Shown piece by piece: positions 3,780 to 30,682 of a DNA stretch of 64,000 nucleotides (the stretch's first letter is position 1; the number at the start of each line of letters is the position of its first letter). A program made the translations under genes and the position numbers. This DNA comes from Mycoemilia scoparia (taxonomy: Eukaryota; Kickxellomycota; Kickxellomycetes; Kickxellales; Kickxellaceae). The stretch spans positions 1-64,000 of the forward strand of contig JANBPU010000085.1 of the NCBI GenBank assembly GCA_027575805.1, written 5' to 3'. The notes beneath the pieces are model-generated. The model was not told the origin of the DNA and ran no database searches. It worked only from the letters and a program-made list of their open reading frames with translations.

Positions 3780-3897
3780 ACCCAGGCTCGCCTCCTGCTC
3801 AAGGGACTGCAGAAAATATTCTCCTATTAATATAATATATCTACTACACCCTCTATAATATTTCAGTGTCTCGCATTGATAATCACACATAGTAACA

Positions 3898-5427
3898 ATG
3901 AAGATTAGTCTAGTAGCCCTTGCCATCGCAGCCATGGGTGCTGTCGCCACTGCTCAGCAGGGAGGATGCCCATCACCACGTGTCCGTAAGGAAATCCGTC
4001 AGCTCACTCCAAAGGAACGCGATAACTACCGCCGTGCCATCTACATTGCCCACAGATCGAACAAGTTCGACATCTTTGCTGAGCTCCACGTCAACAACAC
4101 AGAGCCTGCCCACGGTGTCCCCATGTTCTTCCCCTGGCATCGTCGCCTCTTGTGGGAGTACGAAAAGATTCTTTCCGACGCTGTTGAGGGCGTAACCCTT
4201 CCATTCTGGGATTGGTCTATGGATGCCATCAAGCCAGAAAACTCTCCAGTATTCAGAAACGACTATCTTGGTGGCAATGGCCGTCAATCTGACAATGTTG
4301 TTGCTACCGGGCCCTTCCGCTTCTGGAAGCTTACCTACCCCCACGACCAGCCACCCCACTTCCTCAAGCGTATCTTCACCCCTGGGCCTAATAACATCAC
4401 CCCCTTCTGGTCCACCGAGGCCCTCATCAGCTTCATCAAGGCAAAGGACAACTACGCCGACCTGCACGACACCATCGAAGATGGTCCCCACGCTACTGTC
4501 CACATTGGTATTGGTGGTGATATGGTTGAGATGTACTCGCCCAATGATCCTTTCTTCTTCCTTCACCACGCTATGGTTGACAGAATCTGGGCTCTCTGGC
4601 AGAATGACAGATCTAGCAACTTCTACCAATACAACGGTGTCGACAAGTTCAACAACAACCGCAAGGTCCAAGCATCAGACATCCTCCCAACTCTTCCCAG
4701 CAAGGCCCAGCTCCCCGTCAGCGACTTCTTTGACACCAAGAGCGCCGGCCTTTGCTACGTGTACGAAGATAACCCAACCTGGACCCAGGCAGTCAAGGCC
4801 TTGGACCAAAGAAATAAGAGTAAAAATAACCTCAGCCGTCGTGCTCCCGCTGGTAACTTTGTTTCAAGCGTCATCGATTTCCTCTTCGGTTCTCGTGGTG
4901 ATGACAAGAAGCAGCCTCCTGCCGATCCCGTCAAGTTTGAAGAATCTCGCAAGGCTGCTGCTCAGCAGGCTGCCAAGGATCTTGGCTACGAGGGTCTTGA
5001 TATTAGCAAGATTCCCAAGGAAGAGACTAAGCTTAAAGAGCCCATGAAGAACCCTGACTCCTGGAACAAGATGAACAACCTTGACCCCAAGAAGGTCGAA
5101 GAGATTCATGCTGCTGGTAACAAGATCATCGAAGATTTGAACAACGATCCTAACTATATTCCCGTCGCTGCCCTGTATAATGCTGCCGTTTCTCAGGGTG
5201 TTGTTGATAAGCCTGGTCCCGCTCCAACTGAGGTCCCACCCACTCCCGAAACAAAGCCCACTGAAAACCCTCAGCCATCTATTCCACCTAGCCAGAGCCC
5301 AAGCCCCGCTGCTACTCCTGCACCAAAGCCTACCCCAGCCAAAACTGGCGGAAACGTTGCTACCTTCACAAACACTGTAACTAAGGACGGCGTTCCATCA
5401 CCAGTCGTTGTTGTTGTCCACTACTAA
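3898..5427 (+). CDS. Secreted tyrosinase 1 (intronless)
   Basis: This is a 509-residue type-3 copper oxidase of the fungal tyrosinase family, which o-hydroxylates monophenols and oxidises catechols to quinones (melanin and cross-linking chemistry). A signal peptide (about residues 1-19) implies secretion. The CuA site is H64, H72 and H81 in HGVPMFFPWHR. The CuB site is H198 and H202 (HATVH), then H224 in DPFFFLHHAMVD. The catalytic domain ends near residue 300. A linker follows, then a Pro/Ser/Thr-rich tail (about 440-480) and a short Val-rich terminus ending VVVVVHY. No caddie-like or extra domain was recognised. The ATG has a TATA box about 120 bp upstream. The protein is clearly paralogous to the one at 10708, but the tails differ. 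Confidence 0.93.
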   Translation: MKISLVALAIAAMGAVATAQQGGCPSPRVRKEIRQLTPKERDNYRRAIYIAHRSNKFDIFAELHVNNTEPAHGVPMFFPWHRRLLWEYEKILSDAVEGVTLPFWDWSMDAIKPENSPVFRNDYLGGNGRQSDNVVATGPFRFWKLTYPHDQPPHFLKRIFTPGPNNITPFWSTEALISFIKAKDNYADLHDTIEDGPHATVHIGIGGDMVEMYSPNDPFFFLHHAMVDRIWALWQNDRSSNFYQYNGVDKFNNNRKVQASDILPTLPSKAQLPVSDFFDTKSAGLCYVYEDNPTWTQAVKALDQRNKSKNNLSRRAPAGNFVSSVIDFLFGSRGDDKKQPPADPVKFEESRKAAAQQAAKDLGYEGLDISKIPKEETKLKEPMKNPDSWNKMNNLDPKKVEEIHAAGNKIIEDLNNDPNYIPVAALYNAAVSQGVVDKPGPAPTEVPPTPETKPTENPQPSIPPSQSPSPAATPAPKPTPAKTGGNVATFTNTVTKDGVPSPVVVVVHY

Positions 5428-9274: not shown

Positions 9275-9950
9275 ATGTGTTAAACTACATCTTGAAAATT
9301 CTCTCCTTTTTATTTTTCTAAGCTCTCGTCGATGTCTCTCTAAATTGGTAAGTCTTCTACTCTACCAATCTGCCTCCCTCCGCATTCAAAAAGTTCCTTG
9401 GTTGTGTGTGTATGATGTTACATATTTTTCTTCTATCCCCGTCATATCGACCATGGTGATACCGTTTCATTTCATCCATTCGCTGTGGATGTTTATATAC
9501 TTGCCAGTATTATTTTGACTGACCCTCTTCTACTCCCAAGAAACTACCGTGTCTTGGCATTCTGTTTACCATTGATGTGTGTGCCTTCTGATTTACTAAC
9601 GTTTTCATATTTTGAATATGCAGCATGAGCATGTATTGCTTGTCACAAGACACTCGGTGATCGAAAAATTGGTGGTTTTTTGAACCCAAAAACGCCCATT
9701 TTTACTCCTACTCACTCAAGCAGCGTACAAGGTATGTATTTTGGGGACATCATTTTCTACCTCCAAGTAGGTCCCTGCCTCCTTCTCACAAAAATGATGA
9801 ATTTTATTCTTTAATTCGCAGTTTCCACTATAGAATGCATTGTCATTCAGTGATGGCCAAACAAGTTTCCTTCCTTAGAAGTCTGATCTTTTCCAGTACA
9901 CGCAGAGTCATCTGTTACCAAATTGCATAGAGTTTGCATTTAACACCCCC
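9275..9950 (+). ncRNA. Candidate spliced non-coding transcript
   Basis: Downstream of a TATA-like box, splice-grade signals occur in a plausible order. The donor G/GTAAGTCTTC is at 9351, with an acceptor TATGCAG at about 9623. A second donor, AAG/GTATGT, is at about 9731, with an acceptor TTCGCAG at about 9822. The resulting exons (about 9275-9350, 9624-9730, 9823 onwards) contain stops in all frames; the only ATG in exon 1 opens a three-codon frame. End points are estimates. It could be a long non-coding RNA, an snoRNA host, a decayed gene or chance. The spacer up to 10600 holds nothing else recognisable. Confidence 0.3.
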
Positions 9951-10609: not shown

Positions 10610-10707
10610 CAGAAAAAGATTCGGTGCTACATCAATAAGTTTAAGCACCTTTCTCTATAGCAATTCAACTCGTACCACTCGACCGCATACGGACTACTAG
10701 CTTGAGC

Positions 10708-12132
10708 ATGATGAAGTTTCATTTGACAAACGTGTTTCTCCTTCTCTCCCTGATCATCGCCCCTGTCTTAGGAAAGTGCAAACACCCCGATGTTCGACGC
10801 GAGTTCCGTAATCTGAGCTCAAAGGAGCGTCACCGTTATGCCAAGGCTGTTAATGAGGTCTACCGTCGTGGCTGGGTTGACAATCTCACACAAAACCACT
10901 TCACCTCTGGCAGACACGTCCATGGTGTTCCTGCATTCTTCCCGTGGCATAGACAATTCATACGCGATTATGAAAGTCTCCTCCAGAAGATTGACCCTGG
11001 CCTTACCTTGCCATATTGGGACTGGACTCTGGACAGCTGCGACCCCAGTTACTCCAAGATATTCAACGACGATTATATGGGTGGTAACGGCGATCCCAAT
11101 TCCAACTACTGTTTGCAGGACGGTCCTTACAAAGGTTGGCAGATGGGCATTGTTGATCCCCACTGCTTGCAGCGCCAATTCAACATGACGCAGTACTGGG
11201 GCCCCGAAGTTCTTTTGGAGGTCCAAAACAACTCCACTGTTTATAGCGAGCTCCATAACCGCATCGAGGATACTGTTCACGCTGCTGTGCACACCAGTAT
11301 CGGTGGAGATATGGCCCAAATGATATCTCCAAACGACCCCATCTTCTTTCTCCACCACGCCATGGTCGACAAGTTGTGGTATGATTGGCAGCTGATGGGC
11401 AAGGGAAGATCCCGCTTCCGTGAATATAATGGCGTGGATTCGACCCGCAACAATGTGACTGTTAAGCCCAGCGATCCTCTTCCAGAATACCAGTTCTTGA
11501 GAATAGAGGATGTCCTCGATCCTCGTGGCGGTCATTTGTGCTACGACTACGAAGAAAACGCGGCTCGCCGCAGTGCTATCAAGCTCTTGAACCTTTATGA
11601 AAACAACACTCCGCCCAGATCTCTGGATGAGACAGCCCACATCATCTCAAATGATCTAGGATATCCTGATGTTGACATCAATGTCTTGAGTCCCGAAGAG
11701 CGCGAAATGAAGGTTGGTTCTGGCAATCCCGACTGGTGGAATAGGATGAACAACCTCGACTCTGACCGCGTCCACCGCCACTATCTGGAAGCAAGTGATA
11801 TCGTTGGAAGGCTTAGCAAGCTACCCAACTTCTTGTCTCCCGCTGTTGTGCAGCTAGCCTACGCAAAAAGCCACGGATTCGAGCGCCAGAGTGGATCAGC
11901 TGGTAGTGGCGGCGTTCCACCTCCCTTCCAGAGAGCTACACCAGTAGTCGATTCTGCATTCATTCCCGTCACAACCCCCGTTCCGGGCCAAACTAGCGGC
12001 AGCAGTGCCACCAGAGCCAGAGCAGCTGCAGGAGGATCAGGTGTAGCCACACCAGCCAACGGAAACAGAAGCGATTCCTGGTCAGATGATTTTTTCAATG
12101 ATGACAATGACGATTTTGAAGACATATTCTAA
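10708..12132 (+). CDS. Secreted tyrosinase 2 (intronless)
   Basis: This is a 474-residue tyrosinase starting at tandem ATGs (10708 and 10711). A signal peptide covers about residues 1-22 and ends LGKCKHP. CuA ligands are H64, H72 and H81 (HGVPAFFPWHR). CuB ligands are H191, H195 (HAAVH) and H217 (DPIFFLHHAMVD). Spacing matches tyrosinase 1 exactly at the CuA site. It has several more Cys than tyrosinase 1 (for example C111, C135 and C153), which suggests disulfides. The tail differs: instead of a Pro-rich repeat it has a Gly/Ala/Ser linker and a strongly acidic end, DDNDDFEDIF. The two genes are co-oriented paralogues 5.3 kb apart, probably an old duplication. The different tails suggest different localisation or activation. 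Confidence 0.93.
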   Translation: MMKFHLTNVFLLLSLIIAPVLGKCKHPDVRREFRNLSSKERHRYAKAVNEVYRRGWVDNLTQNHFTSGRHVHGVPAFFPWHRQFIRDYESLLQKIDPGLTLPYWDWTLDSCDPSYSKIFNDDYMGGNGDPNSNYCLQDGPYKGWQMGIVDPHCLQRQFNMTQYWGPEVLLEVQNNSTVYSELHNRIEDTVHAAVHTSIGGDMAQMISPNDPIFFLHHAMVDKLWYDWQLMGKGRSRFREYNGVDSTRNNVTVKPSDPLPEYQFLRIEDVLDPRGGHLCYDYEENAARRSAIKLLNLYENNTPPRSLDETAHIISNDLGYPDVDINVLSPEEREMKVGSGNPDWWNRMNNLDSDRVHRHYLEASDIVGRLSKLPNFLSPAVVQLAYAKSHGFERQSGSAGSGGVPPPFQRATPVVDSAFIPVTTPVPGQTSGSSATRARAAAGGSGVATPANGNRSDSWSDDFFNDDNDDFEDIF

Positions 12133-28304: not shown

Positions 28305-30682
28305 ATGAAGTGGAAATACTTTAATAGTACAGCAACAGAATTCATTATAGTAGATTCGGAAGAAACAAGTACGGCACACATTTTAAAAAGCACCAGTGGT
28401 GACTTAAAACCATCTGAAGCATTTCAGCTACGTTATCGAACAAGCAGAGAACAGCCAATTTGCCTAATACTAACCAACTACTTTAATGAGTTTTCAAAAT
28501 CCAGTAAACCTGGGCACCAACATCCATTAATAGATCATGCTATAGTACAAGAAATATCAGAAAGGTTGAAATCGCCTTTCTGTTCATTTACCATGCTTGT
28601 GAGAGAAACTCAATCGCCCGAGATGTGGGTAGAGGCACTTGACACAAAAATAAGCAGCAAGGCTGGTAGTACATACTTTGGATTCTCTCAGAAAGTGTAT
28701 AGACTTTCATTGTTCAAGCTTATTCAAGAGTTATTTGATAAAATATACCAATTTTCTGGCAAATGGACTAAAACTAACATTGTAAATGGCTTCAGGTGTG
28801 CCATCGATGATATTATAGATCGTGCTGAAGACAACGTGATCTTTATAGAGGACCTTATGCCATTCCTTCAAATCCCTACACTGCGCCCATTCACTCTACC
28901 ATTATTATATAAAGCGGGACATGCCAGAAACATTAGGAAAGATTCAAGCGATGATGTATATTCTTGTGGTATGTCGCAAGCCATAACCGAAAGGATTCTT
29001 GATCAAACAAAAAGGTACGCATTTTTTTTGAAAACCTTTGCATTGCTGTAATTTATTATGGCTGTTATAAAAAATGCTGTAATTCAATAATGACCTATTT
29101 CGGATGTGTTTATCAACATAAATTATAATATAGGTACATTTACCAGCAGCTTGCTGACCACAGATCTAGATTTATCGCACACGCCACTCGTAAAGAGACC
29201 CAAATGGGAATGCTCTTATATGGACCAAGCGGCAGTTTGGGACATCTTTTTGGATCCAAGAATCAGGAAGTGAAGCCGAGTCCTAAATGGAAAATAGTAC
29301 CATGTCATTTTAAGTATGATATTGAGGGTCCAATGCCAACCGACATTATGCTTTCTGTGTTGAAAATGAAAATCCTTGAACTTAAAAGCCATAAAGACCT
29401 AAAACCATTCAAGATAAAAATCAACAAAGATATCATCACTGCTTCGACCAAGCTTATACCATATATGGTTAATGGAAGCACATTTACTGGAATGTTCCCA
29501 AATCTTCGGTCAGGGACGAATCCAGATAATGCCCTTCTCTGGATCCAGCATATTCTCTGCGCTTTAGCCATCTCAGCCAAAACCAATGGAGGGGCTGACC
29601 TGACAGAACTTTGTAATGGAAAAAAGATATATCAGCTTGTACTAAATAAGCCATTGCACCTATATCAGCTTGTTTGCAGGCTGATAGTCCCTAATGAAGT
29701 AGCACAGCAGTCACTAGATTCTTGTGCTGTTCAGACCAAGTATCATCTGCAAAATGTCTTAAAGGGACGGCTGATAATACATGAAGAATCAATTGAGCAG
29801 ATAGCCGAGTTTCATGAGTGGGACCAGACAATCATCCACAAACAATGCTACTTTCTTAACTCTGAAGAGCAGGGCATCTCATCATATGTTTTTGTAGGAC
29901 CATTTCACACTGGTAAGTTGGTTCTGGCAAAGCTTTGGTCTAAATATATTTTAGGCAATGAGTGTGAGTGTATAGAGATAGACATGCAGCTGTATAAATC
30001 TCTTGAGAATTGGGATTCGTTCTGCGACCTTGTTGGTTACCAGTTTGATGTCAAAAGCTGGAGTGCAGACAGGCCTTATAAATCCATAAATAACAAAAAG
30101 CTTGTTGTATTGAAAAATATTACACGGTGCTCGCTTGAAGTGTTAAAGAGAATATACAAGATGCTTAACTATGGGGAGATAGAAACAAGTAGTGGGTACT
30201 GCCGCCCCATAAAGGGTGCGGCATATGCCCTGATTGTGGATCTCTTTAATTTTGAAATATCGGACATTAAGGAAGAATATATGAACGAGAATAGCATGGC
30301 TAACAATGTAGATATAATTTCATCATACTTCTCGGACAGCGCCAACCTCTTTGATATGAGGCTATTAGTTGAGAAATATCTGGCTGAAAAGTATGCACTC
30401 CCAGGTCACCTACAGTCCAGGACTATTATTTTTGATGAGCTTGATGAGTTTGACTTGAAAAAATCAATCAAAATATATATAGGAGAAGCCATGGGTGGAT
30501 GCTCTGATGAAGATATTAATATGGAAAACGACCATATGTTCTCAGAGGCCGCTGAGCTTTATACATCGGGTGCCTTTGGAAGAACACAGCTAATGGACAA
30601 GCTGGAACAGCTTATGCAAAACTACACAACCGGTTGGAATCATCAGGATAGGACGTCACAAGGAAATTTCCTAATTGATTGA
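28305..30682 (+). CDS. Divergent Hsp100/ClpB-like protein lacking ATPase residues
   Basis: Two exons (28305-29014 and 29134-30682) give 752 residues with no premature stop. The order of segments resembles ClpB/Hsp104, but signature residues are lost. AEDNVIFIEDLMPFL (about 175-189) resembles the NBD1 Walker B and sensor segment NVILFIDELHTL with DE swapped to ED (E182, D183). The upstream Walker A is unrecognisable. Residues about 262-380 resemble the end of NBD1 (PTDIMLSVLKMKILELKSH, then IITASTKLIPY). GPFHTGKLVLAKLW (492-505) matches the NBD2 Walker A, but the Thr after the Lys is Leu (L499). LVVLKNITRCSLEVLKRIYKML matches VVLFDEIEKAHPDVF with the Walker B DE replaced by KN (564-565). No ClpB N-domain or long coiled-coil M-domain is evident. 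The family assignment is by eye. Confidence 0.6.

Follow-up and report, generated by a model that had tools for sequence, protein, structure and literature searches.

Can a fungus keep a protein of the Hsp100 family whose residues for ATP hydrolysis have been lost, and what would such a protein do? The question is raised by a gene at 28305..30682 in a 64,000-nucleotide stretch of Mycoemilia scoparia DNA (assembly GCA_027575805.1, contig JANBPU010000085.1, positions 1 to 64,000; hereafter the window), a part of contig C451 in an assembly that spans 21.2 Mb and 466 contigs. Coordinates are those of the window, and every feature of the gene lies on the + strand. The NCBI entry for the gene, recovered in a protein search, is hypothetical protein H4219_003476 of M. 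scoparia (Kickxellaceae, Kickxellales). The C-terminal part of its product, residues 436-752, appears to be a degenerate second nucleotide-binding domain (NBD2, or D2) of Hsp100 descent. The initial annotation of the locus described an intact two-exon gene of 752 codons, and this gene is real, as the splice model and the open frame bear out. The frame runs free of stops from the ATG at 28305 to the stop at 30680-30682 and encodes 752 residues. Exon 1 (28305..29014) codes for residues 1-236 and ends two bases into codon 237, the intron (29015..29133) has 119 base pairs, GT..AG ends and a guanine-cytosine fraction of 0.26, and exon 2 (29134..30682) contains the remainder of codon 237 through residue 752 and the stop. 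This model is the sole open splice solution in the stretch scanned. Read in its two remaining forward frames, the spliced gene contains 55 and 73 stops, and at the local noncoding stop rate the chance of 752 open codons is ~1.5e-17. The start of exon 1 is uncertain; the NCBI model is shorter, with 656 residues starting at Met97 (28593).

The degenerate NBD2 (29729..30679) emerges from profile, shuffle and BLASTP tests, with which the predicted fold is consistent, and its best-supported segment is residues 441-526 (29744..30001), comprising the D2 entry, the P-loop and an LDMSEY-like block. The comparison set held 191 Hsp100 rows (76 ClpB, 112 ClpA/C, HSP104, HSP78, and the degenerate Hsp100 C53 discussed below); 80 ClpB loci and 119 ClpA/C proteins had been collected, of which 4 and 7 were left out on length or letters. 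BLASTP against these rows reached a best E value of 7e-7, and the best alignment lay in the C-terminal half for all 165 subjects, with E <= 1e-3 in 51. A comparison by hhalign with the ClpB profile gave a probability of 71 for residues 441-524. The score of residues 436-530 against the ClpB profile was reached by 0/400 shuffles, and that of residues 436-752 end to end by none of 500 shuffles and none of 23 decoys. The best sequence matches of the protein are ClpB, ClpC and ClpK, at ~20% identity to any Hsp100. NCBIfam matches were far below cut-off (ClpK 0.0044, ClpB 0.0059, ClpG 0.03), the PDB match to ClpC had an E value of 0.0045 with the whole protein and 0.0024 with residues 436-752 as query, and apart from itself the protein matched only HSP104 and HSP78 within the M. 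scoparia genome. Unrelated weak PDB matches were also obtained, such as phycobilisome linkers, from E 0.024 upward. The NCBIfam, PDB and genome results are each weak, yet they converge on one place, Hsp100. On sequence grounds, NBD2 descent appears secure for residues 436-530 and likely for the remainder of 436-752. An origin from torsin, Lon or the AAA clade was rejected, as the top matches are Clp only, and so was horizontal transfer from bacteria, given the intron, the fungal neighbours and the lack of a bacterial relative in the whole-protein search.

The order of NBD2 elements resembles that of Hsp104/ClpB: entry helix block, P-loop, LDM.EY-like block, Walker B strand, beta hairpin and small domain. 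Unlike in Hsp104/ClpB, the catalytic positions are replaced, in registers taken from the best BLASTP alignments covering each site. All 164 covering alignments place the Walker A motif GPFHTGKL (residues 492-499; 29897..29920) opposite the canonical GxxGxGKT P-loop, with Thr changed to Leu and Lys498 kept. KN at residues 564-565 (30113..30118) takes the place of the Walker B DE in 43/43 alignments, and the PDB match and the multiple alignment give the same register. Fewer alignments cover the sensors: of the 27 that span IVD (residues 604-606; 30233..30241), at least 20 pair it with the sensor 1 TSN and at least four are gapped, and all six that span GRT (residues 719-721; 30578..30586) pair it with the sensor 2 GAR. 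Leu536 faces the pore-loop Tyr of GYVG, the preceding residues being deleted, in 15 of 18 alignments (the best 18 of 43 covering). The sensor-1 Asn, the sensor-2 Arg and the pore-loop Tyr thus look replaced. The active class I motifs, NBD2 Walker A GxxGxGK[TS] and Walker B DE, are absent, and GPFHTGKL and KN are found instead. Because established AAA+ knowledge applies to these replaced residues, no ATP hydrolysis is expected, and we infer on sound grounds that the NBD2 ATPase is dead. Both Walker changes had been read correctly in the initial annotation, and its broader claims of Hsp100 descent, lost NBD2 ATPase residues and an open frame all hold. The AAA/Clp match that it looked for in profile searches was obtained, albeit weakly (best NCBIfam and PDB values as given above) and with a blank Pfam result.

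We consider it fairly probable that the product is an Hsp100/Clp-derived NBD2 pseudo-ATPase that is translated, selected and works without hydrolysis as a ring partner or tuner, or as a scaffold. The second AAA+ domain would have kept its fold without the residues needed to hydrolyse ATP, and threading by the pore loop would probably be lost as well. Substrates could hardly be threaded, because hydrolysis, the pore Tyr, a detectable N domain and room for an M domain are all lacking. The protein would be translated and maintained by selection, and its NBD2 surface might dock into or against active HSP104 or HSP78 rings of the same cell and tune them. Alternatively, NBD2 might have turned into a scaffold on which other proteins are held, in the manner of SMXLs. 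Whether it is a ring tuner or a scaffold is a guess, as are the remnant of NBD1, any regulatory role and the identity of the partner. The gene model, the open frame, NBD2 descent and the replaced motifs are demonstrated; the absence of hydrolysis, the NBD2 fold and selection on the protein are what we infer.

Several results weigh against this reading. The Pfam scan of the 752-residue protein matched no domain, and no relative was found in two protein searches, so that the case for selection on the protein comes from the open frame. The register of the arginine finger near residues 660-668 is ambiguous and allows no confident placement. Residues 526-752 taken alone are marginal, since 85/1000, 68/500 and 13/500 shuffles scored as well; against HSP104 itself, 1 of 200 did. 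Moreover, the N-terminal half, which looks unrelated, scored as well against the profile of the second part of NBD2 (3/500 shuffles), so marginal values of that size arise without meaning. Given a single sequence as input, AlphaFold2 returned a predicted local distance difference test (pLDDT) score of 34 and was of no use. In the structural check proposed earlier, AlphaFold with Foldseek, the fold is consistent when Hsp100 rows are supplied, but the Foldseek and VIA matches rest on that very model and are not independent of the rows. The whole-length structural matches had a root-mean-square deviation of about 8 Å.

The N-terminal 435 residues allow a different reading. The initial annotation had seen the segment order of a double-AAA ClpB/Hsp104 protein; that order is demonstrated for NBD2 only, and the likeness to a first nucleotide-binding domain (NBD1, or D1) did not rise above shuffles with ordinary profiles. 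Residues 56-430 can be aligned to NBD1 by eye, and MAFFT also aligns them. With a position-specific scoring matrix in local mode, 936 of 1000 shuffles matched the ordinary NBD1 profile as well as residues 85-435 did; for residues 1-435 in semi-global mode, 237/500 shuffles and 10/19 decoys were as good. Pairwise NBD1 tests against HSP104, HSP78 and C53, and against the D1 of C112 (another degenerate Hsp100), HSP104 and C53, were likewise not above shuffles. The claims that the NBD1 Walker B is swapped to ED and its Walker A gone therefore rest on statistically unsupported similarity. VIFIED (residues 178-183; 28836..28853), a candidate NBD1 Walker B with ED that is not established, was covered by 0/165 best BLASTP alignments, and 7.5% of the shuffled versions of residues 1-435 contain an hhhh[DE][DE] string of its kind. 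No Clp_N was found, by Pfam or in residues 1-90, which were not above shuffles.

These NBD1 scores with ordinary profiles and against the C112, C53 and HSP104 D1, together with AlphaFold2 pLDDT values of 28-60 for P0001 1-200 despite the Hsp100 rows, speak for a single-AAA Hsp100 derivative, in which only NBD2 would be Hsp100-born and residues 1-435 another fused domain, as in Skd3/CLPB with its single NBD2 behind a different N-terminal domain. Skd3-type proteins carry ankyrins there; in the 752-residue protein Pfam matched neither an ankyrin nor any other domain. A point on the opposite side comes from a degenerate-D1 profile, for which we selected 16 degenerate D1s of bacteria and added C53, C112, HSP104 and HSP78; it gave a weak signal (15/500 and 21/1000 shuffles and 20/272 decoys as good). 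Its best alignment places residues 56-184 (28470..28856), a possible but unproven NBD1 remnant, onto HSP104 160-278 in the expected order and register, and pairs LTNYFNEF..HPLIDH with LSKYAVDL..DPVIGR and VIFIED with ILFIDE, a register that VIFIED also takes in the multiple alignment. The multiple alignment leaves no room for a full M domain, and the stretch ahead of NBD2 has a length that suits a D1 without one. On this sequence evidence, a degenerate NBD1 in residues 1-435 seems slightly favoured, and the Skd3-like origin is possible, if doubtful. As a separate observation, the bacterial Clps P0053, P0054, P0065, P0089, P0104 and P0112 have a degenerate D1 Walker B beside a canonical D2.

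The pseudo-ATPase reading can be set against the other Hsp100 genes of the genome. A search for canonical HSP104 and HSP78, as had been advised, found both, intact by motifs (HSP104 in contig C262, HSP78 in C214), and by our own reading contig C245 carries an Skd3-like gene with ankyrin repeats. Excerpts of PMC12283024 describe fungal Hsp100s as two lineages, HSP104 and mitochondrial HSP78. Two further genes encode degenerate Hsp100s. C53 (H4219_004329, 1251 residues; G000:C53:31606-35358, L037) matches ClpB at 1.2e-41 and keeps both P-loops, with the Walker B DE changed to DP in D1 and QD in D2; in the genome scans it was below detection for ClpB_D2-small and Clp_N. C112 (an 812-residue frame with a sub-threshold Clp_N; G000:C112:265700-268135, L130) matches ClpA at 9.3e-30, keeps the P-loop GPQGTGKS, has DE changed to ED (WIED), and no D2 was found on it. 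Against HSP104, no shuffle of 100 was as good for either. Both resemble the 752-residue protein in their altered Walker B and differ from it in their kept P-loops and in being plainly Hsp100 by profile; they are the clearer degenerate Hsp100s and better pseudo-ATPase cases. Their presence in the same genome makes the idea of an Hsp100 pseudo-ATPase more plausible. No specific kinship of the 752-residue protein with C53 or C112 was shown by pairwise tests or by the D2 and D1 trees, which are saturated, their terminal branches having 8-10 changes per column; the groupings of the query with C53 and of C53 with C112 were taken for long-branch effects. A protein search with C53 residues 225-960 gave 134 proteins at E <= 0.01 among 7994 scored, and among the best 120 of these none except C53 itself exceeded 109 bits, the named ones being bacterial Clps. 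In addition, a 281-residue frame in C182 (L129, L131) has a sub-threshold Clp_N match of 16.8 bits against a cut-off of 20.7 and is possibly an N domain without an ATPase.

The retained P-loops of C53 (both) and C112 (its one) beside an altered Walker B also lend something to another reading of the 752-residue protein, in which it would bind ATP without hydrolysing it and act as a nucleotide-dependent switch that sets the assembly state. Its Walker A does retain GxxxxGK, including Gly497 and Lys498. On the other hand, the change from Thr to Leu in Walker A loses the Mg-coordinating hydroxyl, and the sensor residues are replaced too, which makes such a switch unlikely.

Regulators derived from Hsp100 are already known in plants. 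The SMXL/D53 precedent invoked for the gene stands as far as Hsp100 derivation and a presumed regulatory role are concerned. It does not extend to the lost motifs: in excerpts of PMC9133912, SMXLs retain Walker A and B in a recognisable D1 and D2, and they combine a double Clp-N with a long M domain and an EAR motif. The 752-residue protein, in contrast, has no detected Clp_N and no LxLxL or DLNxxP, and it leaves no space for an M domain. According to excerpts of PMC4999309, LULL1 regulates TorsinA without a Walker A or B, and the luminal domains of LAP1 and LULL1 resemble our protein as AAA+-like partners, themselves lacking both motifs, of an active Clp-type ATPase. They differ as single domains of membrane proteins from another sequence family with a demonstrated arginine finger. 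Among the literature matches listed, no fungal Hsp100 pseudo-ATPase was in print, in agreement with the earlier remark that no fungal equivalent was known; that remark fails within the genome, which encodes C53 and C112. A wider and rather unlikely proposal is that at least three Hsp100 pseudo-ATPases (the 752-residue protein, C53 and C112), a different part missing in each, regulate or co-assemble with HSP104/HSP78 or are signalling scaffolds, as a separately arisen fungal counterpart of SMXLs and torsin activators. A fungus that has, besides its two Hsp100 lineages, Hsp100 derivatives lacking a working ATPase would show that this machine can take on non-motor roles beyond plants as well, and its inactive partners would form a natural set for testing the regulation of a disaggregase ring.

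The whole-protein search returned only the gene itself at E <= 10 (1 of 5459 candidates, the Kickxellales content of the database not being checked), as did the search with residues 440-640 (1/285 candidates); the method requires shared exact 5-residue words, and orthologues under roughly 40% identity may escape it. A decaying copy or mispredicted gene without protein function would suit this lack of homologues, the first 96 codons, whose usage is not coding-like, and a whole-gene codon score (0.085) that tops its own six frames yet falls below 9/9 comparison genes (0.098-0.38), but it is very improbable given 752 codons left open at such low identity to any Hsp100 and a single clean intron.

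The surrounding genes are ordinary fungal ones by Pfam, namely ribosomal protein S13/S18, a Methyltransf_16 methyltransferase, an EF-hand protein and a chitin synthase. Two further neighbours are an Rrp6-like exonuclease and an Mtr4/Ski2-like helicase, the names Rrp6 and Ski2 being our own reading. Elsewhere in the window, two tyrosinase-domain genes lie close together on the + strand (3883-5424 and 10645-12129), and the C/D box small nucleolar RNA snR107 (9404-9528, + strand) is located between them.
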